Shown in pieces: positions 14 to 38,849 of a stretch of 38,868 nucleotides of DNA. Every line of letters begins with the position of its first letter. The first letter of the stretch is position 1. The DNA comes from Saprospiraceae bacterium. Lineage in GTDB: Bacteria; Bacteroidota; Bacteroidia; Chitinophagales; Saprospiraceae. The notes beneath the pieces were generated by a model. It was not told where the DNA came from. It saw only the letters and a list, made by a program, of their open reading frames with translations, and did no database searches. The translations under genes and the position numbers were made by a program. Location: the NCBI GenBank assembly GCA_020631455.1, contig JAHDHF010000010.1, positions 1 to 38,868 on the forward strand, written 5' to 3'.

Positions 14-137
14 GGGGCCATCCGCTCCTCGCGTGCTCGTCGCGGTCGCTATGCTCCGTGGCTCGCTGTTCGCTCGGCCGCTCCTAGAGCTTCGCTCTAC
101 GTCGCGTCTGCTTCGCACCACTTCGCAGCGCTTGTCC
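14..137 (+). repeat. Structured intergenic element, type 1, copy 1
   Basis: First of 15 related copies. Order of parts: 5' end GGGCCATCC; variable hairpin H1; box B (GGTCGCTATGC, then TCCGTGG); mirror core GCTCGCTGTTCGCTCG; variable hairpin H2; short hairpin H3; box C (CCACTTCGCAGCGC); end TTGTCC. Pairings seen here: the ends GGGC with GTCC (one G-U); box B CGCT, GC and GTGG with box C AGCG, GC and CCAC across facing three-base loops; H2 TAGAGC with GCTCTA; H3 GC-TTC-GC. H1 is weak here (CCGC with GCGG). The conserved end TTGTCC lies 18 bases before a TATATTTG promoter motif of the next gene, so its TTG could serve as that promoter's -33 element; other type 1 copies do not show this. Confidence 0.9.
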
Positions 138-560: not shown

Positions 561-677
561 GGCTCAGGGATAGAAGGCAGTGCCGCAAGGCAGACGCGCA
601 GCGTAGCAAGCGGCCGAGCGAACAGCGAGCTGCCGGATAGCCCGACCGCGCGTAATGAAATGAGCGCGGTGAGCCCC
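561..677 (-). repeat. Structured intergenic element, type 2, copy 2
   Basis: Read on the minus strand. Type 2 ends: GGCTCA at the 5' end pairs perfectly with TGAGCC at the 3' end. H1 is CCGCGC with GCGCGG. Long-range stem P1: box B GGG and GGCAG pair with CCC and CTGCC of box C, and the intervening TA/TA pair replaces the TG/CA of other type 2 copies. H3 is GCC with GGC. It lies between two convergent genes, next to a separate terminator. Reading frames through it are artefacts. Confidence 0.9.
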
Positions 678-7020: not shown

Positions 7021-7134
7021 GGGCCATCCACCACTCACAAGTTCGTGGCGGTCGCTATGCTTCGTGGCTCGCTGTTCGCTCGGCTGCCTACGGCATCCGC
7101 TCCCTATGGTCGCGCCACTTCGCAGCGCTTGTCC
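7021..7134 (+). repeat. Structured intergenic element, type 1, copy 3
   Basis: Between divergent folK and umuD. Ends GGGCC and GTCC. H1 pairs CCAC with GTGG; H2 pairs TGCC with GGCA around TAC. Box B (CGCT, GC, GTGG) pairs with box C (AGCG, GC, CCAC). The mirror core GCTCGCTGTTCGCTCG is intact. The rest of the 286-base gap (7135-7243) is AT-rich and holds the umuD promoter candidate. Confidence 0.9.
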
Positions 7135-9072: not shown

Positions 9073-10440
9073 ATGGCCAAAACAAAAACAATATTCGTTT
9101 GTCAGTCATGCGGTGGCACATCGCCAAAGATGGAAGGCAAATGCCGCCATTGCGGCGAATGGAATACACTCGTCGAACAAGTACAAAAGCCACAAGCCAA
9201 GCGCAGCACGTTTGCCCAAGCAAGCGGACAGCGTAATTCAGCTGCTCCAGTACGCCTCACTGACATAGCTGCCGAAAAAGGACAGCGCGTATCAAGTCAA
9301 GACGACGAACTCAATCGCGTACTCGGCGGCGGCATCGTACCAGGATCAGTCATCTTGATTGGTGGTCAGCCAGGTATCGGCAAGAGTACGCTGCTGCTCC
9401 AAGTTGCACTCAATCTCAGTGGCACGATCCTGTATGTCACAGGCGAAGAAAGCGCATCGCAGATCAAGATGCGAGCAAATCGCCTCAAAGGAGATGGCAG
9501 CAATTGCCACATTCTGACAGAGACAAATGTGCAAGACATCATGACGGCCGCTACGACGATCAAGCCGTCCTTGCTGATCGTAGACTCGATACAAACCTTG
9601 CAGTCGCCAGACATCACATCCACACCAGGCAGCGTCTCACAGGTACGTGAGTGCGCAGGCGAGCTCCAGCAATTTGCCAAGGCCACAGGAATCCCGACCG
9701 TACTCATCGGACACATCACCAAAGAAGGCTCACTTGCAGGGCCAAAACTCCTAGAGCATATCGTCGATGTCGTCCTTCAGTTTGAAGGCGATAGACATCA
9801 CACTTATCGCATCTTACGGACGATCAAAAATCGCTTTGGCTCGACTTCTGAGCTCGGCATTTATGAGATGCGTGCCGACGGTCTCCGCGAAGTCAGTAAC
9901 CCAAGCGAGCTGCTCCTCTCCCAAAACGAAGACGAACTCAGCGGCAGCGCCATCGCCGCCGCGCTCGAAGGCAATCGACCACTCCTCATCGAGACCCAAG
10001 CACTCGTCACCAAAGCCGTCTACGGCAATCCACAGCGCTCGACCACAGGCTTCGATCTGCGCCGCATGAATATGCTCCTCGCCGTACTCGACAAGCGCGG
10101 CGGCTTACCATTTGGACAGTGCGATGTCTTTCTCAATCTCGCAGGCGGCCTGCGTATGGATGATCCAGCCATTGATCTCGCCGTCTTGAGCGCACTGATG
10201 TCGAGCCTGCGTGATGTCGCGATACCCGCTACAGTCGCATTTGCTGGAGAGGTCGGACTCTCAGGCGAAGTGCGAGCCGTCAGCCACATCGAGCAGCGCC
10301 TGATCGAAGCAGCTCGCCTCGGATTTACAGACATGTACATCCCAGCCACCAATCTGCGCGGGCTCAGCAAGCAGCCCAATACAATCAGACTGCATCCAAT
10401 AAGTAAAGTAGAGGAAATCTATGAACGCCTCATGACATAG
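9073..10440 (+). CDS. radA: DNA repair protein RadA
   Basis: RadA is a RecA-like ATPase that drives branch migration in recombination. The 455-residue protein begins with a C4 zinc finger (C10, C13, C24, C27). The Walker A motif GGQPGIGKST is at 97-106 and Walker B LLIVDS at 167-172. The RadA-specific KNRFG motif is at 252-256, and a C-terminal Lon-like domain follows (FDLRRMNMLLAVL, AGGLRMDDPAIDLAVL, GEVGLSGEVRAV). Length is normal. It follows umuC closely, making a compact DNA-damage block, and converges on a 42-residue membrane protein gene only 15 bases beyond its stop. Confidence 0.96.
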   Translation: MAKTKTIFVCQSCGGTSPKMEGKCRHCGEWNTLVEQVQKPQAKRSTFAQASGQRNSAAPVRLTDIAAEKGQRVSSQDDELNRVLGGGIVPGSVILIGGQPGIGKSTLLLQVALNLSGTILYVTGEESASQIKMRANRLKGDGSNCHILTETNVQDIMTAATTIKPSLLIVDSIQTLQSPDITSTPGSVSQVRECAGELQQFAKATGIPTVLIGHITKEGSLAGPKLLEHIVDVVLQFEGDRHHTYRILRTIKNRFGSTSELGIYEMRADGLREVSNPSELLLSQNEDELSGSAIAAALEGNRPLLIETQALVTKAVYGNPQRSTTGFDLRRMNMLLAVLDKRGGLPFGQCDVFLNLAGGLRMDDPAIDLAVLSALMSSLRDVAIPATVAFAGEVGLSGEVRAVSHIEQRLIEAARLGFTDMYIPATNLRGLSKQPNTIRLHPISKVEEIYERLMT

Positions 10441-10669: not shown

Positions 10670-10797
10670 GGGCCATCCGCTCCTCACACGTTCGTCGCGG
10701 TCGCTATGTTTCGCAGCTCGCTGTTCGCTCGGCCGCTCCTTGAGCTGCGCTCTACGTCGCGTCTAGCCTAGCGGCTCCTGCTTCACAGCGCTTGTCC
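10670..10797 (+). repeat. Structured intergenic element, type 1, copy 4 (double compensatory variant)
   Basis: Between the small membrane protein gene and tadA (divergent). This copy is the clearest evidence for pairing. Box B has GT-TTC-GCAG in place of GC-TTC-GTGG, and box C correspondingly has CTGC-TTC-AC in place of CCAC-TTC-GC, so both halves of stem P1 are restored. H2 pairs GAGC with GCTC, and an extra hairpin AGCC-TAGC-GGCT is inserted after GTCT. The rest of the 276-base gap shows nothing more than a loosely matching TAATTTG nine bases before the tadA ATG. Confidence 0.9.
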
Positions 10798-11958: not shown

Positions 11959-12063
11959 GGCGTAGGGATGGTAGGCAGTGCGTAGCAGACACGAGCGGAG
12001 CGATGTGGCCGAGCGAACAGCGAGCTGCCGAACAGCCCGCCGCGCCTCTGGCGCGGACGCCCC
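11959..12063 (-). repeat. Structured intergenic element, type 2, copy 5
   Basis: Minus-strand orientation, between hpt and pdxH, which run in the same direction, so it is probably inside a transcript. The terminal stem has changed to GGCGT with ACGCC. H1 is perfect (CCGCGCC-AGA-GGCGCGG). P1 pairs GGG, TG and GGCAG with CCC, CA and CTGCC. H3 is GC-TAC-GC. The mirror core is intact. Confidence 0.9.
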
Positions 12064-15467: not shown

Positions 15468-15597
15468 GAGCCATCCTTTATTTTTTTCTAGTGAAATACA
15501 CTAGAAAAAAAATAAAGGTCGCTATGCTTCGTGGCTCGCTATTCGCTCGGCCGCTCCTACGTCGCGTCTGCTGCGCACCACTTCGCAGCGCTTGTCC
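15468..15597 (+). repeat. Structured intergenic element, type 1, copy 6, with terminator-like H1
   Basis: Type 1 with box B, core (GCTCGCTATTCGCTCG, one base changed) and box C all present and pairing as in copy 1. The 5' end is GAGCC, weakening the terminal stem. The H1 slot holds a 44-base, nearly perfect hairpin rich in A and T instead of the short GC hairpin of other copies. It lies between two plus-strand genes. Confidence 0.9.
15475..15518 (+). terminator. Terminator-like hairpin nested in repeat copy 6
   Basis: Arms CCTTTATTTTTTTCTAGTG and CACTAGAAAAAAAATAAAGG around AAATA, 22 bases past the stop of the TlpA-like gene. The T run lies in the left arm, so on the plus strand there is no U tract after the hairpin. 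It looks better placed to stop minus-strand transcripts, or to act only as a stable hairpin. Confidence 0.5.
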
Positions 15598-15683
15598 GAT
15601 CTACGACAGAGCTTAAAAATAATCACTTAAACATTTCAACTCGTATTACATTAGAGTTTGCATAATTCTAAAAAGCAATTCCG

Positions 15684-16544
15684 ATGAAGTATTTGTTTGT
15701 TCTATTGAGTGCTGTATTTGTATTGCCACTTACAGCACAATCTCCGTGGACTCAGCCACACAAGGGCGGCTATGCACAAGTAGGCTTTTCAATGATTCCT
15801 ACATACTCAAGTATTTTTTATGAGGATGGCAGCCTAGAGCTTCCTAGAGAAGTTCTTGATATTGAAGTTCAGCTCTACGGAGAGTATGGAGTGCGCGAGG
15901 GGACAACTCTTCTTTTGTCACTACCTGTAAAATATGTAAGTACAGGCGATTTGAATCCACAGTCCTTTATTATTACGCCTGAAAAATCAATTGTTGGACT
16001 TGGAAATACAACTCTAGGCATAAAGCAAGCGATCTTAAAAAATGATTTCAAACTATCAGCTTATCTCAATGCTGGTATTCCATTGATTAATAGAGATGAG
16101 AATACAGGCCTGCAAACGGGCTTTGATGCTTTTTTAATTACACCTGGTATTTCATTTGGCGCGGGTCTCGGCAAAGGCTATGCTTACGGATTTTCGGGCC
16201 TTGAAATCGCGACAAAAAATATCAGTCACAGTTATGTAGGCGGAGTGGAAGTTGGTTACAACATTGCCGATATTTTGACAGCAGCTGTCGTAATACATGC
16301 TCGTGTCTCCTTGCAAAATAGAGAAGATAATTTGGGCAACCTTTCATCAAATATTTTTACAGGATTGTACATGAATAATCAAGAATATATTTCTTGGGGA
16401 TTAAAAATATTTAAAGAAATTAAAAATGGCTATGGTGTGAGTGCTGCTTTTTATGGTGCATTTAGTGCTGATCGCGTCGCGAGATCGCCTTCGTTTAATC
16501 TTGGTGTGTTTAAGAAATTTGATGGCGCAAGTCAAGGTGAATAG
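15684..16544 (+). CDS. Putative outer-membrane beta-barrel protein
   Basis: A 286-residue protein with a signal peptide at 1-18 (MKYLFVLLSAVFVLPLTA, then QS). The mature part is made of alternating short amphipathic strands rich in Gly, Tyr and Phe (GYAQVGFSMIPTY, LQTGFDAFLITPGISFG, YGFSGLEIATKN, YGVSAAFYGAF), and ends with a strand FNLGVFKKF. This is the pattern of a 12-strand or so outer-membrane barrel, similar to MetA-pathway or transporter-type porins. The exact family is not recognised. There is no T9SS tail. Confidence 0.7.
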   Translation: MKYLFVLLSAVFVLPLTAQSPWTQPHKGGYAQVGFSMIPTYSSIFYEDGSLELPREVLDIEVQLYGEYGVREGTTLLLSLPVKYVSTGDLNPQSFIITPEKSIVGLGNTTLGIKQAILKNDFKLSAYLNAGIPLINRDENTGLQTGFDAFLITPGISFGAGLGKGYAYGFSGLEIATKNISHSYVGGVEVGYNIADILTAAVVIHARVSLQNREDNLGNLSSNIFTGLYMNNQEYISWGLKIFKEIKNGYGVSAAFYGAFSADRVARSPSFNLGVFKKFDGASQGE

Positions 16545-16553
16545 GCTGCCAAT

Positions 16554-16695
16554 GGCATAGGGATGGAAGCAGCGCCCGTAGGGCGGATTCTATTAAAAAC
16601 GCCTCACAATTTTGTGGGGCTTTTTTAATAGAAGCTAGGCTACCGTACGGCGGATCAGCCCGCCGTAGCTGAATGAAATGAAGCTGCGGATGCCC
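16554..16695 (-). repeat. Structured intergenic element, type 2, copy 7 (degenerate core, terminator in H2)
   Basis: Minus-strand orientation. The terminal stem is GGCAT with ATGCC. H1 is about eight pairs with one G-U, CCGCAGCT with AGCTACGG. H3 is GCCC-TAC-GGGC. The mirror core GCTCGCTGTTCGCTCG is lost, replaced by CCGTACGG and neighbours, and P1 is incomplete. The H2 slot holds the terminator of the upstream plus-strand gene. Confidence 0.8.
16588..16633 (+). terminator. Bidirectional terminator nested in repeat copy 7
   Basis: GCCTCACAA and TTGTGGGGC form the stem, followed on the plus strand by TTTTTT. The hairpin is extended outward by TTCTATTAAAAA pairing with TTTTTTAATAGAA. It lies 44 bases past the stop of the putative barrel gene. 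Confidence 0.8.
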
Positions 16696-16756
16696 ATTTA
16701 AAAATGATAATGTTGTTTACGAGAATATGTCAATACTATTTCCGAAACATTGTGAA

Positions 16757-16764
16757 TACTTTTG
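16757..16764 (+). promoter_or_regulatory. Putative -7 promoter element TACTTTTG
   Basis: Matches TAnnTTTG, 15 bases before the ATG of recG. Confidence 0.55.
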
Positions 16765-16779
16765 CTAGGTAAATTGAGC

Positions 16780-18909
16780 ATGATACAAAGCGAGCATCAC
16801 AGTTTCCTTGATACTTCTGTCGAATTTCTTAAAGGAGTTGGGCCTAAGCGTGCGAAGCTGCTGAATAAAGACTTGCGGATTTACACCTTTGCTGATCTTA
16901 TTGAGCATTATCCATTTCGGTATACTGATCGTACACAATTGCATCGTATACGTGAGCTCAATGCGGATAGCGGAAATGTCCAATTGCTTGGTATGATGCG
17001 ACGAGTGAGTGTCGCTGGCTCTGGATTTAAGAAACGGCTTGTCGCTCGTTTTCAAGACGAGACAGGCAGCATTGATTTGACGTGGTTTAAGGGCGTTCAG
17101 TATCTCCAAAAAATCATTAAACCGAATCAACAATATCTGATTTTTGGTCAAGTCAATAGTTTTAATGGACGGCTCAGTATTACGCATCCAGAAACAGAGC
17201 TGATCGAGCGCGAAGAAGACACGTCTGAGTACACGACACTTGTGCCAGTGTATAGTGTGACTGAGCCATTGCGGAGGAGCGGACTCGATAGTCGCGGGAT
17301 TCGCAAGAGCATGGCGCACTTGTTTGGGCAGCTCAAGGATGCTGATGTGCCTGAGACCTTGCCTGAGTATTTGATCCAAAAACTGAAGCTGCCGCATCGG
17401 CTGCCTGCTTTGCGGATGCTCCATTTTCCAGCAGACTGGGAACAACACAAAGCTGCTGTGCGGAGATTCAAATTCGAAGAGTTGTTTTTTAATCAATTGC
17501 CACTCGTACAAAGCAACTCAATCAACAAACGCACGATCAAAGGGCCGAAGCTCGAGCAATTGGGTGACGCCTTCAATCGCTTCTACAATGAGATCCTCAG
17601 CTTTGAGCTGACAGGCGCACAAAAGCGAGTCATCAAAGAGATTAGAGCCGATGTGCGCTCCGGCCGCCACATGAATCGTTTGCTTCAAGGCGATGTCGGG
17701 AGCGGAAAAACAATCGTCGCGGTCATCGTCATGCTCATGGCACTTGATAATGACTATCAAGCCTGCTTGATGGCGCCGACAGAAATTCTCGCGCGGCAGC
17801 ATTACGATGGTATTAGTGAACTACTTAAGCCGCTTGGCTTGACTGTTAGCTTTTTGAGCGGCAGCATTAAAGGCAAAAAGCGCAAACTCATCCTCGAACA
17901 ACTTCAAGCCGGCGAGATCGATATCTTGATCGGTACTCATGCCTTGATCGAAGAATGGGTTGTCTTCAAGCAGCTCGGCATAGCCGTGATCGACGAGCAG
18001 CATCGCTTTGGCGTCGCGCAGCGCGCCAAGCTCTGGGCAAAACGCACAGATGATAAGCCGCCGCACATCCTTGTGATGACTGCTACACCAATTCCGCGTA
18101 CACTCGCGATGACTGTCTACGGCGATCTTGATGTCTCGACGATTGATGAGCTGCCGCCAGGGCGCACACCAGTCGAGACTCTTGTCCGCACGAATACACG
18201 TCGCACAGAAATCTATACCTTCATCAAGCAGCAGATCGAAGAAGGCCGCCAAGCCTACATCGTCTATCCGCTCATCGAAGAAAGCGAAACCCTCGATCTA
18301 CAGAACCTTGAAGATGGCTATGCGATGGTCAAAGACTATTTCCCCGAGCCGAAATATCAGATCAGCATGGTGCACGGCCGTATGAAAGCCGCCGAAAAAG
18401 ATGCCGAGATGCAGCGATTCGTCAGGGGCGAAACCCAGATCATGGTCGCCACGACAGTGATCGAAGTTGGTGTCAATGTGCCCAACGCTTCTGTGATGGT
18501 CATCGAAAATGCAGAGCGTTTTGGACTCTCGCAGCTTCACCAGCTGAGAGGACGAGTCGGGCGTGGAGCCAAGCGCTCGTACTGTGTTTTGCTCGCAGCT
18601 TACAAGCGCAGCAAAGAGGCCAAAAAGCGACTCGATACAATGGCAGAGACGACGGACGGTTTCAAAATCGCCGAAGTCGATATGGAGATACGCGGTGGCG
18701 GCGATATCGAAGGCACGCAGCAGAGTGGGGTGATTCAGTTTCGCCTAGCAGATCTCGCCACCGATCAAAATATTCTCCAAGCAGCGCGCACCATCGCGCA
18801 GCGCATCGTGACCGATGATCCACACCTCGACCATCCTGTACACACTTGCATCCGCAAGCAGCTCAAACGCATCCGCAAGAGCAAAAGCAGCTGGAGTCGT
18901 ATCAGTTAA
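16780..18909 (+). CDS. recG: ATP-dependent DNA helicase RecG
   Basis: RecG remodels stalled forks and Holliday junctions. The 709-residue protein has the N-terminal wedge/OB region (FLKGVGPKRAKLL, LIEHYPFRYTD), Walker A GDVGSGKT at 304-311 and the DEQHRFG box at 405-411. TATPIPRTLAMTVYGDLD is the RecG-specific motif III region. The C-terminal LHQLRGRVGRG and RGGGDIEGTQQSG motifs are also diagnostic. The ATG at 16780 is preferred over an upstream TTG that coincides with the promoter motif. Length is normal. The stop is 19 bases before a small membrane protein gene that has its own promoter motif. Confidence 0.96.
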   Translation: MIQSEHHSFLDTSVEFLKGVGPKRAKLLNKDLRIYTFADLIEHYPFRYTDRTQLHRIRELNADSGNVQLLGMMRRVSVAGSGFKKRLVARFQDETGSIDLTWFKGVQYLQKIIKPNQQYLIFGQVNSFNGRLSITHPETELIEREEDTSEYTTLVPVYSVTEPLRRSGLDSRGIRKSMAHLFGQLKDADVPETLPEYLIQKLKLPHRLPALRMLHFPADWEQHKAAVRRFKFEELFFNQLPLVQSNSINKRTIKGPKLEQLGDAFNRFYNEILSFELTGAQKRVIKEIRADVRSGRHMNRLLQGDVGSGKTIVAVIVMLMALDNDYQACLMAPTEILARQHYDGISELLKPLGLTVSFLSGSIKGKKRKLILEQLQAGEIDILIGTHALIEEWVVFKQLGIAVIDEQHRFGVAQRAKLWAKRTDDKPPHILVMTATPIPRTLAMTVYGDLDVSTIDELPPGRTPVETLVRTNTRRTEIYTFIKQQIEEGRQAYIVYPLIEESETLDLQNLEDGYAMVKDYFPEPKYQISMVHGRMKAAEKDAEMQRFVRGETQIMVATTVIEVGVNVPNASVMVIENAERFGLSQLHQLRGRVGRGAKRSYCVLLAAYKRSKEAKKRLDTMAETTDGFKIAEVDMEIRGGGDIEGTQQSGVIQFRLADLATDQNILQAARTIAQRIVTDDPHLDHPVHTCIRKQLKRIRKSKSSWSRIS

Positions 18910-18915
18910 AATACA

Positions 18916-18923
18916 TACTTTTG
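18916..18923 (+). promoter_or_regulatory. Putative -7 promoter element TACTTTTG, leaderless type
   Basis: TACTTTTG, four bases (TACT), then the ATG of the small membrane protein at 18928. The spacing is the same as for the SDR and DEAD-box helicase genes. Confidence 0.6.
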
Positions 18924-18927
18924 TACT

Positions 18928-19266
18928 ATGTCAGACCATAATATCCTTGATCACGATACTATCTCAGAGCAGCCAGAATCAATTCCAGATGCAGGGCTCA
19001 TTTTCGGCCTCGGTATCGTCTCTATCGTTTTAAGCCTCACATTCTGTGGCATAGGGTTTATTCCTGGTGTCATTTGCCTGATTAAAGCAAAAGAGCCGAT
19101 GCGACTCATCAAAGAAAACCCTGGGAAATACACAGACGCCTCTAATGTGTCAACAGGTCGCGTACTTGGTTTGATCGGGACTATCATTGGCGGACTCATG
19201 TTCGTATTTGTATTTCTCTATTTTATTTTCATCTTCGCACTTATCGCTGCTGAAGGTAATTTTTAA
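18928..19266 (+). CDS. Small two-helix membrane protein (CCC-motif/DUF4190-like)
   Basis: A 112-residue protein with a polar N-terminus of about 22 residues. A first membrane segment covers about 23-52 (LIFGLGIVSIVLSL, then CGIGFIPGVICLI). A polar loop KAKEPMRLIKENPGKYT follows, and then a second segment at about 78-108 (VLGLIGTIIGGLMFVF to FALIAA). This layout, with the small Gly-rich helix, a KENP-type loop and a second helix, is that of the DUF4190-like or 'CCC motif' membrane proteins of Bacteroidota. The function is unknown. Confidence 0.8.
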   Translation: MSDHNILDHDTISEQPESIPDAGLIFGLGIVSIVLSLTFCGIGFIPGVICLIKAKEPMRLIKENPGKYTDASNVSTGRVLGLIGTIIGGLMFVFVFLYFIFIFALIAAEGNF

Positions 19267-19292
19267 TTCTATTTTTTAATAGAATAAGAAGA

Positions 19293-19438
19293 GGGCGGCT
19301 CGCCGCGCTCCGCGCAGCGATCAGGCTGTTCGGCAGCTCGCTGTTCGCTCGGCCACACTAAAAAAATCCTGCTTGGAAATGTTCCAAGCAGGATTTTTTT
19401 TAGTGCGTCTGCTGCGCACTGCCTACCATCCTTGCCGC
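19293..19438 (+). repeat. Structured intergenic element, type 2, copy 8, with terminator in H2
   Basis: Lies between two convergent genes. The terminal stem is GCGGC with GCCGC. H1 pairs TCGC with GCGA and CGCG with CGCG. In P1 the outer pairs are AGG with CCT instead of GGG with CCC, a compensatory change. TG/CA and GGCAG/CTGCC are kept. The mirror core is intact. The H2 slot holds a 50-base hairpin; H3 is GC-TGC-GC. A short palindrome TTCTATT-TTTT-AATAGAA sits just before it at 19267-19284. Confidence 0.9.
19356..19405. terminator. Bidirectional terminator nested in repeat copy 8
   Basis: Arms of 23 to 24 bases. The GC part pairs TCCTGCTTGGAA with TTCCAAGCAGGA, flanked by an A run on the left and a T run on the right, and closed by CACTA with TAGTG. 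It can end transcripts from both convergent neighbours. Confidence 0.85.
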
Positions 19439-20784: not shown

Positions 20785-20894
20785 GGCATAGGGATGGTAG
20801 CAGGCTGCCGTAGGCAGAGCCACTTGTGGCCGAGCGAACAGCGAGCTGCGGATCAGCCCGCCGCTATCACGAGTATCGTGGTAGCGGATGCCCC
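20785..20894 (-). repeat. Structured intergenic element, type 2, copy 9
   Basis: Minus-strand orientation, between two minus-strand genes. The terminal stem is GGCAT with ATGCC. H1 is long: CCGCTACCACGA with TCGTGATAGCGG, 11 of 12 paired. In P1, GCAG with CTGC replaces GGCAG with CTGCC, and GGG with CCC and TG with CA are kept. H2 is GCCAC-AA-GTGGC; H3 is TGCC-TAC-GGCA. The mirror core is intact. Confidence 0.9.
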
Positions 20895-26097: not shown

Positions 26098-26225
26098 GGG
26101 CCATCCGCGCCTTTGGCGCGGTCGCTATGCTCCGTGGCTCGCTATTCGCTCGGCCGCTACACTCCCCCTGAGAATTCGGGGTGCGTTTGCGTCTGGCTAT
26201 CGCCACCACTTCGCAGCGCTTGTCC
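26098..26225 (+). repeat. Structured intergenic element, type 1, copy 10
   Basis: Between the divergent gld operon and toxin-antitoxin genes; it fills most of the 318-base gap at 26004-26321. H1 is perfect (CCGCGCC-TTT-GGCGCGG). H2 contains CCCC paired with GGGG around the recurring submodule CCTGAGAATTCGGG. H3 is GGC-TATC-GCC-like. Box B and box C pair as in copy 1. The core is GCTCGCTATTCGCTCG. Confidence 0.9.
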
Positions 26226-28950: not shown

Positions 28951-29035
28951 GGCTGAGGGATGGTAGGTGTTGTCTGAACGAGCGCAGCGAGAGAGTGCCG
29001 AACAGCCCGACCGCAGCTTTGCTGCGGGCAGCCCC
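28951..29035 (-). repeat. Structured intergenic element, type 2, copy 11 (short)
   Basis: Shortest copy, minus-strand orientation, between divergent helicase and mnmG. The terminal stem is GGCTG with CAGCC, a compensated version of GGCTCA/TGAGCC. H1 is perfect (CCGCAGC-AAA-GCTGCGG). P1 keeps GGG with CCC and TG with CA, but the inner pairs are reduced to GG with CC. The mirror core is replaced by CTCGCTGCGCTCG, and H2/H3 are largely missing. Confidence 0.85.
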
Positions 29036-31974: not shown

Positions 31975-32104
31975 GGTCGCTATACATCGTGGCTCGCTGT
32001 TCGCTCCCGATACGTTTGACTATTGGGACAGGTCGGCTGCTCCTTGAGCAGCGCTCATGGTCGCATCTGCTCATGATATTCGCACCACTATGCAGCGCTT
32101 GTCC
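31975..32104 (+). repeat. Structured intergenic element, type 1, copy 12 (5' truncated, hairpin insertion)
   Basis: Begins at box B; the GGGCC end and H1 are missing. P1 middle pairs are CAT with ATG in place of GC with GC, with CGCT/AGCG and GTGG/CCAC kept. A hairpin TCCCGAT with ATTGGGA (one G-U) interrupts the end of the core. H2 is GCTGCTC-CTT-GAGCAGC. The 398-base gap at 31940-32337 also holds a possible small gene. Confidence 0.85.
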
Positions 32105-35273: not shown

Positions 35274-35419
35274 GGGCCATCCCTTCGCTCATTCCCCCGA
35301 AGAATTCGGGATTCATTCGCTACGGGTCGCTATGCTTCGTGGCTCGCTGTTCGCTCGGCCTCAGCGCTGCATTCGCAGCTTATGAGTCTGGCTGCGCCAC
35401 CACTTCGCAGCGCTTGTCC
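35274..35419 (+). repeat. Structured intergenic element, type 1, copy 13
   Basis: Between two minus-strand genes, opposite to their direction. H1 is enlarged (CCC with GGG outside) and contains the submodule hairpin CCCGAA-GAA-TTCGGG. H2 is GCTGC-ATTC-GCAGC; H3 is GGC-TGC-GCC. Box B and box C are identical to the type 1 consensus, and the mirror core is intact. Confidence 0.9.
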
Positions 35420-38504: not shown

Positions 38505-38621
38505 GGGGCTCACCGCCTCATTTCATTCGGCGGTCGGGCTGCTTTAGGGCTCGCTGTTCGCTCGGCTACTCGTGCTACGCACTCGCATCTGGCTGAAGCC
38601 ACCCTTTCGCATCCCTGAGCC
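38505..38621 (+). repeat. Structured intergenic element, type 2, copy 14
   Basis: Plus-strand orientation, probably in the 5' leader of the PBP gene (antisense to it). The terminal stem is GGCTCA with TGAGCC. H1 is CCGCC with GGCGG. In P1 the inner pairs have become AGGG with CCCT, next to TGC with GCA and GGG with CCC, compensating on both sides. H2 is GTGC-TAC-GCAC; H3 is GGCT-GA-AGCC. The mirror core is intact. Confidence 0.9.
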
Positions 38622-38717: not shown

Positions 38718-38849
38718 GGACAAGCGCTGCGAAGTGGTGCTGCAAGCAGACGCGAAGTGAAACGAAGCGGCCGAGCGAACAGCGAGCCACGTAGCTCCTC
38801 CTGAGAATTCGGGATAGCGACCGCGCGGCAATTGCCGCGCGGATGGCCC
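38718..38849 (-). repeat. Structured intergenic element, type 1, copy 15
   Basis: Minus-strand orientation, facing copy 14 across 96 bases. H1 is perfect (CCGCGCGGCAA with TTGCCGCGCGG). Box B is interrupted between GGTCGCTAT and CGTGG by the submodule CCCGAATTCTCAGG, also seen in copies 10 and 13. GTGG/CCAC and CGCT/AGCG pairs and the mirror core are intact. H3 is CTGC-TT-GCAG. Confidence 0.9.

Follow-up and report, generated by a model that had tools for sequence, protein, structure and literature searches.

Hairpin slots with variable self-complementary contents in a high-copy intergenic repeat of a Saprospiraceae bacterium

Repeat copies in the window

The stretch of DNA analysed here (hereafter the window, 38,868 nt) comprises positions 1-38,868 of the forward strand of contig JAHDHF010000010.1 from a Saprospiraceae bacterium (GCA_020631455.1) and contains 15 recognised copies of an intergenic repeat, in which conserved boxes are combined with several hairpin slots (H1, H2 and usually H3). 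Fourteen of these copies were found by a parser of the right end of the repeat, and one more, copy 8, whose right end did not match the parser, was added by hand. Copy 6, belonging to subtype I, occupies 15468..15597 on the plus strand (outer arm GAGCCAT ... CTTGTCC), and its H1 slot, located at 15475..15518 of the same strand between GAGCCAT and TCGCTA, is filled with an AT hairpin, which has homologues with paired changes in the H1 slots of loci L018 and L044; AT hairpins of this type carry the T-run on the 5' side and are not terminators by the terminator rule used. Copy 7 (16554..16695, minus strand, subtype IIc) starts 9 nt past the 3' end of the gene 15684-16544, its H2 slot (16588..16633, minus strand) being occupied by a terminator-like hairpin. 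Copy 8 (19293..19438, plus strand, subtype IIa) is located between convergent genes and has the outer stem GCGGC/GCCGC, an H1 hairpin at 19300..19320, identified by direct reading of the plus strand, and a bidirectional, terminator-like H2 hairpin at 19356..19405 of the same strand. According to the original prediction, these three copies carry hairpins of 44, 46 and 50 nt, respectively, exactly in the slots, with the conserved boxes running on at both sides, and direct reading bore this out. Copy 7, however, should not be taken for an unusual form of the element of copies 6 and 8: in its subtype, IIc, the H2 slot typically holds a long AT or terminator hairpin (25 of the 33 IIc H2 slots that could be read, by visual count).

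Three further copies of subtype I, as was also predicted, have a CCTGAGAATTCGGG-like module in common, and it is indeed found in three different places. In copy 10 (26098..26225, plus strand) CCTGAGAATTCGGG lies at 26167-26180 within the H2 slot (26155-26191); in copy 13 (35274..35419, plus strand) CCCCGAAGAATTCGGG is found inside 35293-35312 of the H1 slot (35281-35326); and in copy 15 (38718..38849, minus strand) the CCCGAATTCTCAGG module stands in the box after GCTAT, at 38800-38813, the positions of CCTGAGAATTCGGG in this minus-strand element. Copy 12, a subtype I copy without a clear left arm (31977..32104, plus strand), has a 27-nt box insert, CCCGATA...GGGACAGG, at 32006-32032.

Fixed slots filled by self-complementary blocks

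The genome to which the window belongs is represented by 2,913,157 bases in 323 contigs (94.3% complete), and the copies were collected from the window and 40 stretches of the same genome, 496,703 bases. The parser retrieved 172 copies, of which 93 belong to subtype I, 28 to IIc, 25 to IIb, 16 to IIa and 10 to III, the left end being recognised in 139 of the total; it misses some copies, copy 8 among them, and a few copies are doubled by scaffolding. In two places, L043:2047-2284 and L009:18605-18830 (minus strand), runs of N are bordered on both sides by an identical part of the element; these are probably scaffolding artefacts counting one copy twice. Extrapolation from 23 copies in 99,888 bases of nine contigs, picked by number and not by matches, gives about 671 copies per genome (Poisson 95% interval 425-1,006).

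All five subtypes share one skeleton, consisting of the outer stem, H1, a box, a subtype module, H2, usually H3, and the right box. The box starts with TCGCTATGC in type I and with a CGGGCTAT-like sequence in type II. In subtype IIb, both in the window (28951-29035) and in other copies, H3 is lacking and H2 is flanked by GCACTCTCT ... TTCAGACAACACC. The outer arms covary in type II, where 53 of the 56 equal-length pairs are complementary versus 26.7 expected (maximum 36 in 2,000 shuffles), with the pair types TG/CA, AT/AT, GT/AC and AG/CT; the 12 of 68 type II rows left out of this test had a missing arm or arms of unequal length. As read by eye, seemingly complementary outer arms, with yet other sequences, accompany the type I box in two other genera as well, namely GCATCA/TGATGC in genome G013 and GCCTA/TAGGC in some copies of G009. 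Directly 5' of type I elements there is a T/A-rich stretch, often ...TTTAT, which may belong to the element or reflect a target preference.

The pairing of the slot ends was compared with that obtained when arms were permuted among copies. Terminal base pairs of H1 averaged 7.97 versus 3.07 in type I (88 slots; maximum of 500 permutations 3.68), 5.08 versus 3.20 in type II (66 slots; maximum 3.56) and 6.13 versus 3.43 in type III (only 8 slots; maximum 5.75); these figures refer to 162 of 211 box matches, the omitted 49 having no left box and being in many cases chance matches in genes. In a set of 76 type I copies, from which H1 slots longer than 60 nt or without a readable core were omitted, every H1 folds as a single hairpin, the first and the last base being paired in 67 of them, and sampled pairs of copies have an identity of 0.93 in the 33-nt box versus 0.45 in the inner part of H1 (0.40 after shuffling). 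Substitutions in the type I box are limited to a few columns. Among the 82 full type I copies, i.e., those with both the left and the right box, we counted 81 distinct H1, 60 H2, 45 H3 and 38 box sequences, with a mean box identity of 0.91, and no two of these copies are alike in all slots. Pairwise identities are uncorrelated between H1 and H2 (-0.02) and between H1 and H3 (-0.04), and weakly correlated between H1 and the box (0.14) and between H2 and H3 (0.26). The copies of L003 and L011 have an identical 38-nt H1 and an identical box, yet differ in H2 and H3. Thus, the slots sit at fixed positions and are filled by self-complementary blocks, H1 being nearly unique to each copy and independent of H2 and H3. 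The fixed position of the inserts, proposed from the few copies of the window, holds in this much larger set, and the outcome named with the proposal as its refutation did not arise. The proposal that hairpins are "gained" turned out to be misleading, as there is no empty slot in the 82 full type I copies and it is the contents that usually differ from copy to copy.

Some fillings are of interest in their own right. Two H1 slots of G013 (L026 and L027) contain 48-nt hairpins with the same base and tip and with different mid-stem blocks in both arms. Very long H2 fillings (more than 90 nt) are found in L006 near 13127 and in L004 near 3424, both on the minus strand, where an extra CCCTCGCTGG...GGGGGT stretch is placed between TTTTTTTGCTT/AAGCAAAAAAA arms, possibly as a nested repeat.

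Some of the blocks are shared palindromes, found in several slots and subtypes. Each of the 13 occurrences of CCCTGAGTAGTCGGGG lies in an element box (10 of type I and 3 of IIb), those in type I boxes being divided between five after GCTA and five in the opposite orientation after GCTCGCTG. Its broad form, CC[CT]GA-N4-TC[AG]GG, is located in parsed elements in 19 of 22 cases, two more being in an unparsed element and one in an open reading frame (ORF). CCTGAGAATTCGGG occurs in one type I H2, one type I box and one IIc box, and CCTGAGTAGTCGGG is present in a type III H2 in L002. The pair TTTTCTATT..AATAGAAAA lies inside parsed elements in 14 of 15 cases (5 in type I H1 and 9 in IIc H2), the fifteenth being an unparsed IIc copy. 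Besides the H1 and H2 slots, the box has insertion sites of its own, which are few and exact: after GCTA or GCTAT, after GCTCGCTG and after GCTC. The module CCCGATA...GGGACAGG follows GCTC in three copies, and its close form is found in the H1 slot of L061; L007 and L013 have inserts at both the GCTA/GCTAT and the GCTCGCTG sites together. The check suggested with the original prediction, a search for the same hairpins elsewhere, therefore gave homologous hairpins in other copies, other slots and other subtypes.

One palindrome, GGGCTTAAGCCC, occurs at seven places in the whole genome, five of them being IIc H2 slots and the other two the ends of an IS200-like Y1 transposase ORF (L052:1401-1852, contig C126 of the same genome, G000), the only Y1 ORF found in the genome. 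At this ORF one copy of the palindrome overlaps the stop codon, the other lies 2 nt before the annotated start, and a scaffold gap adjoins one of the two. The protein passes the NCBIfam cut-off for IS200/IS605 (72.5 versus 55). Within the repeat, GGGCTTAAGCCC is located inside the IIc H2 and not at the repeat ends; its presence there is, in our view, the strongest direct indication that slots can accommodate palindromes of transposons. As to the CGCACTRAAGTRCG palindromes of genomes G019 and G006, six contexts were read, and neither such elements nor a Y1-type motif was seen there.

Another part of the slot variation looks like rewriting of one arm after the other. A search for CCACGCACTAAAGTNC with up to two mismatches gave 17 matches versus 3 for the reversed control pattern, mostly in IIc H2 hairpins (L152 is not one of these). 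In L139, L140, L142 and L146, and with one change in L141, the 5' arm ...GATCCACGC faces a non-matching 3' arm ACGTGGCAATAC.... In L138 (the same place as L150) the same 5' arm is accompanied by a 3' arm that is its exact complement, and in L137 and L147 the 3' arm ACGTGGCAATAC... (with one change in L137) is accompanied by a 5' arm, GTATTGCCACGC, that fits it apart from one or two differences. L143 and L147, which share 45 or more bases where their contigs end, probably represent a single copy. Two different outer stems are found with the unmatched form, and the related hairpins of L144, L145 and L149 retain the CAA excess on the 3' arm, the corresponding bases being TAA or TAG in L148, L151 and L153. 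Because of these two features, it looks as if the unmatched form were ancestral and the two matched forms were corrections in opposite directions. When hairpins were compared within families, changes were more often paired (751) than one-sided (262) or two-sided and unpaired (128), in pairwise counts that are not independent events; without the type II CTCCTAG group, which has a poor register, the respective numbers are 687, 132 and 71.

The stems also bear a structural signature. Between Watson-Crick neighbours there are 1,067 Watson-Crick pairs, 5 G-T, 15 A-C, 20 T-C, 3 G-A, 7 T-T, 1 A-A and 8 C-C. A symmetric TC/TC internal loop below the tip, read as GA/GA on the other strand, was found in H1 of 36, H2 of 38 and H3 of 10 of the 82 copies, versus 5.2, 12.1 and 1.1 after shuffling of arms (the largest of 300 being 13, 19 and 4), and seven other dinucleotides tested as symmetric internal loops gave 0 or 1 each. 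On the GA/GA strand tandem sheared G-A pairs could form. The excess of T-C over G-A (p=0.0005) and of A-C over G-T (p=0.04) indicates the same strand. Since 34 of 43 tandem type I copies have this strand in antisense orientation to the adjacent genes, a role of the fold in mRNA is less likely, and its action in single-stranded DNA or in an antisense transcript is more likely.

Genomic position, mobility and possible explanations

The other copies in the window belong to subtype I (15..137, 7021..7134 and 10670..10797, all on the plus strand, the last of them downstream of a radA-like ORF at 9073-10440), IIa (561..677, 11959..12063 and 20785..20894 on the minus strand and 38505..38621 on the plus strand) and IIb (28951..29035, minus strand). 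Gene context was taken from a simple ORF caller. Over the whole copy set the 3' ends of flanking genes are at a median distance of 20 nt from the copies (n=159) and the 5' ends at 81 nt (n=119); 15 of 172 copies lie within called ORFs longer than 150 aa. Slot terminators, i.e., H1 or H2 fillings in which a GC stem is bordered by an A-run and a T-run, are present in 12 of 173 copies (the 172 parsed ones and copy 8), including copies 7 and 8, and the 11 with known context are located from -1 to 17 nt from a stop codon. With the definition relaxed so as to include imperfect hairpins such as that of copy 7, slot terminators stand between convergent genes in 6 of 11 cases versus 32 of 139 for the rest (p=0.031); under the earlier strict definition the ratio was 5 of 6 versus 32 of 143 (p=0.004).

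The element was found in three of 30 genomes, namely its own, G009 and G013, the last with 190 first-look candidates, and Y1 matches in 24 of the 30, including its own and G009 and excluding G013. A Y1 or RAYT protein was rejected as the mover of the whole element, since the presence of Y1 does not track the element among relatives. Retro-copying with template jumps was set aside too, there being no match to the reverse transcriptase family PF00078 in the genome, where at 94.3% completeness absence is not certain. No excess of matching 2-9 nt flanks, which would point to target-site duplication, was detected among 80 type I copies. Comparison with G009 and G013 was confined to stretches in which only eight of the own proteins had a qualifying match. 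A copy lies 230 nt after radA in the own genome, the 3' flank of radA in G009 (1.5 kb) is without the element, and in G013 the sole match, one to the right end, lies about 1.5 kb off, where the stretch compared ends. Immediately past recG there is a type I element in G013 and none in the own genome; for G009 the comparison covers about 115 bases past recG. In the stretches compared, no element site at recG or radA is shared among the three genomes. From the high copy number and from only these two genes compared with related genera, we infer that the element moves as whole copies and strongly prefers DNA immediately downstream of stop codons.

Taken together, these data make it rather probable that the element is a high-copy, probably non-autonomous multi-hairpin intergenic repeat, related to Flavo-1, the slots of which turn over as self-complementary blocks. 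Turnover would proceed by two routes, the insertion or exchange of small palindromes and arm-templated rewriting, i.e., template switching within a hairpin, which would renew complementarity and yield sequence-diverse, nearly perfect stems. The earlier idea of hairpins exchanged as units would then stand in part: recurrence across slots and subtypes and the independence of H1 from H2 and H3 speak for it, but many of the differences resemble rewriting of arms. A block with a GC stem and A- and T-runs next to a stop codon would serve as a terminator of one or both neighbouring genes. Several points weigh against this explanation. Not all stems are perfect, 189 of 1,637 stem nucleotides being unpaired across the 76 type I H1 slots, so that the blocks, proposed to be always self-complementary, are not perfectly so in every case. 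The correlation of 0.26 between H2 and H3 means some linkage, unless it is an effect of parsing. The family of matched and unmatched hairpins can alternatively be explained by recombination at the loop, a cross of the two matched forms giving the unmatched one, and the prevalence of paired changes is that of pairwise counts. The association of slot terminators with convergent genes comprises 11 cases only, and its p-value was calculated once the definition had been relaxed; between divergent genes the difference is not significant (0 of 11 versus 25 of 139, p=0.21), and, as copies in general hug stop codons, nearness to these is not special to terminator copies. Finally, the nearest relatives in the contig collection searched have at most 57% RecG identity and offer no orthologous pair of empty and filled sites, so movement and exchange were not directly seen.

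No slot is empty or unpaired, substitutions in the box are limited to a few columns, the recurrent TC/TC (GA/GA) internal loop resembles a selected fold, and the copies lie close to stop codons; all this would also be accounted for by old structured cis elements, each copy being selected as a structured RNA or a terminator-like structure, with functional boxes and with stems drifting by compensatory substitution, as they do in different tRNAs or terminators. We nevertheless find this explanation unlikely: exchange or insertion is required by the identical 38-nt H1 beside unrelated H2 and H3, by the palindromes shared across slots and by the occurrence in H2 of the palindrome of the IS200 ends, the element downstream of radA is missing from the G009 flank, G013 having only a distant right-end match, the antisense orientation of the GA/GA strand in most tandem type I copies is unexpected for a fold in mRNA, and G-U pairs are few on either strand (5 or 15 beside 1,067 Watson-Crick pairs). 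If the whole repeat were a usual non-autonomous element of the REP/RAYT or IS200 type, a Y1 (HUH) transposase would mobilise it by recognising its hairpins. In favour of this, the end palindromes of the only Y1 ORF do occur in H2 slots, and the lack of a detected target duplication agrees with IS200/IS605 elements, which produce none. Such an origin is improbable, as G013, with its 190 candidates, is without a Y1 match, the protein scores below the RAYT cut-off, and the shared palindrome was found only in IIc H2 slots, the boxes that all copies have being without it. Homologous recombination or gene conversion across the 33-nt boxes, which alone would reshuffle pre-existing hairpins, agrees with H1 being nearly unlinked to the other slots, and a crossover in or after the box fits the identical H1 and box with different right halves; as the sole process it is very improbable, since it does not create 81 different H1 in 82 copies, for which a limited pool would give repeated alleles, and does not explain why the arms match.

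More tentatively, the repeat with slot turnover may represent a class of mobile DNA in which the hairpin is the unit of turnover: sockets of the scaffold would take palindromes from transposons, other copies and possibly gene terminators, the arms of which would afterwards be rewritten through template switching; the repeat would spread past stop codons because it can carry a terminator, and the Flavo-1 "sRNA" would be a surviving piece of such a scaffold and not a regulatory RNA. With hundreds of paralogous hairpins set in a common frame within one genome, nature has provided a replicated experiment on the origin and change of near-perfect stems, which elsewhere have been studied in rRNA and microRNA genes. 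Flavo-1 could also be explained by way of this repeat, which illustrates how genes might receive terminators from repeats, and its boxes and shared modules make the idea of turnover testable in strains.

Comparison with known systems

Flavo-1 (RF01705) has figured among the candidate structured RNAs since 2010, and no function for it was found in the literature searched. The exact sequence GTCGGGCTATCCGC has 29 matches in the own genome and is present in 19 of 198 genomes of the phylum, the own one included; most of the 19 contexts have the same flanking order, those of L129-L131 resembling chance matches in genes. Like the present element, other Bacteroidota repeats with GTCGGGCTATCCGC are ordered as outer stem (e.g., GGGCGTG...CACGC), H1, GTCGGGCTATCCGC, H2 and CTATCCCTCACGC. 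When 15 GTCGGGCTATCCGC loci were scanned with the Flavo-1 model, four reached the Rfam gathering score of 42 bits, four more matched at the same place below it (32.2-40.3 bits), and seven, including the own IIc copy of L114, gave no match at E<=1. The scan of the window at the gathering threshold gave no match, the best Flavo-1 score being 21 bits for a partial hit, and the own IIc copy of L010 scored 22.6 bits over the full length (E 0.89), below the cut-off. The sequence conserved around the Flavo-1 hairpin (GGGCTATCCGC ... CTATCCCT) is recognised in the element, subtype I copies having a different box. The Rfam model covers 76 positions, and its match omits H1 and the 5' outer arm in eight loci; the eight matches are on the GA/GA strand, opposite to the orientation of the element used here. 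As its copies score below the Rfam cut-off, we consider the element, judging by sequence comparison, a relative of the Flavo-1 repeat and not a member of it. Literature searches among open-licence PMC papers yielded neither a published name nor a description of the present element. According to PMC9723704, Flavo-1 matches are indistinctly sense or antisense to transcribed regions, many of them lying outside these, a pattern that DNA repeats would be expected to show.

In 12 copies a slot has the make-up of an intrinsic terminator (a GC stem, then a T-run, close after a stop codon in the 11 with known context) and may be regarded as a candidate for this role. The repeat resembles REP/REPIN-RAYT systems in being high-copy, intergenic and palindromic, in a genome with a Y1 ORF that has end palindromes. 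However, the stems of REP sequences are family-conserved (PMC3733652), whereas H1 of the present element differs in almost every copy, its junction boxes being conserved, and Y1 does not follow the element. No common stem was found among the H1 sequences, 81 of 82 being distinct (the GTAG or CGTC foot of REP stems itself was not scanned), and no RAYT gene was recognised, the only Y1 protein found scoring 38.3 versus the cut-off of 80 for the RAYT (REP transposase) model. Compared with miniature elements (MITEs) of the DDE-transposase type, the element has no detected target-site duplication; as to terminal inverted repeats, its outer arms are complementary (53 of 56 in type II), but they comprise just a few bases and vary from copy to copy.

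Repetitive hairpin-forming elements (RHEs) of sponge mitochondria and the double-hairpin elements of fungal mitochondria are, like the present repeat, small intergenic hairpin modules, tandem or combined. In sponge RHEs, according to PMC2800124, stems are conserved and substitutions fall in the loops; here, in contrast, it is the stems that vary. A parallel to the changes in the slots is provided by template-switch mutations, proposed to create and maintain RNA hairpins, one arm templating the other in a single event (Monttinen and Loytynoja, PMC8794818). Such a process predicts the paired and multi-base changes seen in slot hairpins; it was described for rRNA and microRNA genes, whereas here template switching would act in a high-copy intergenic repeat.

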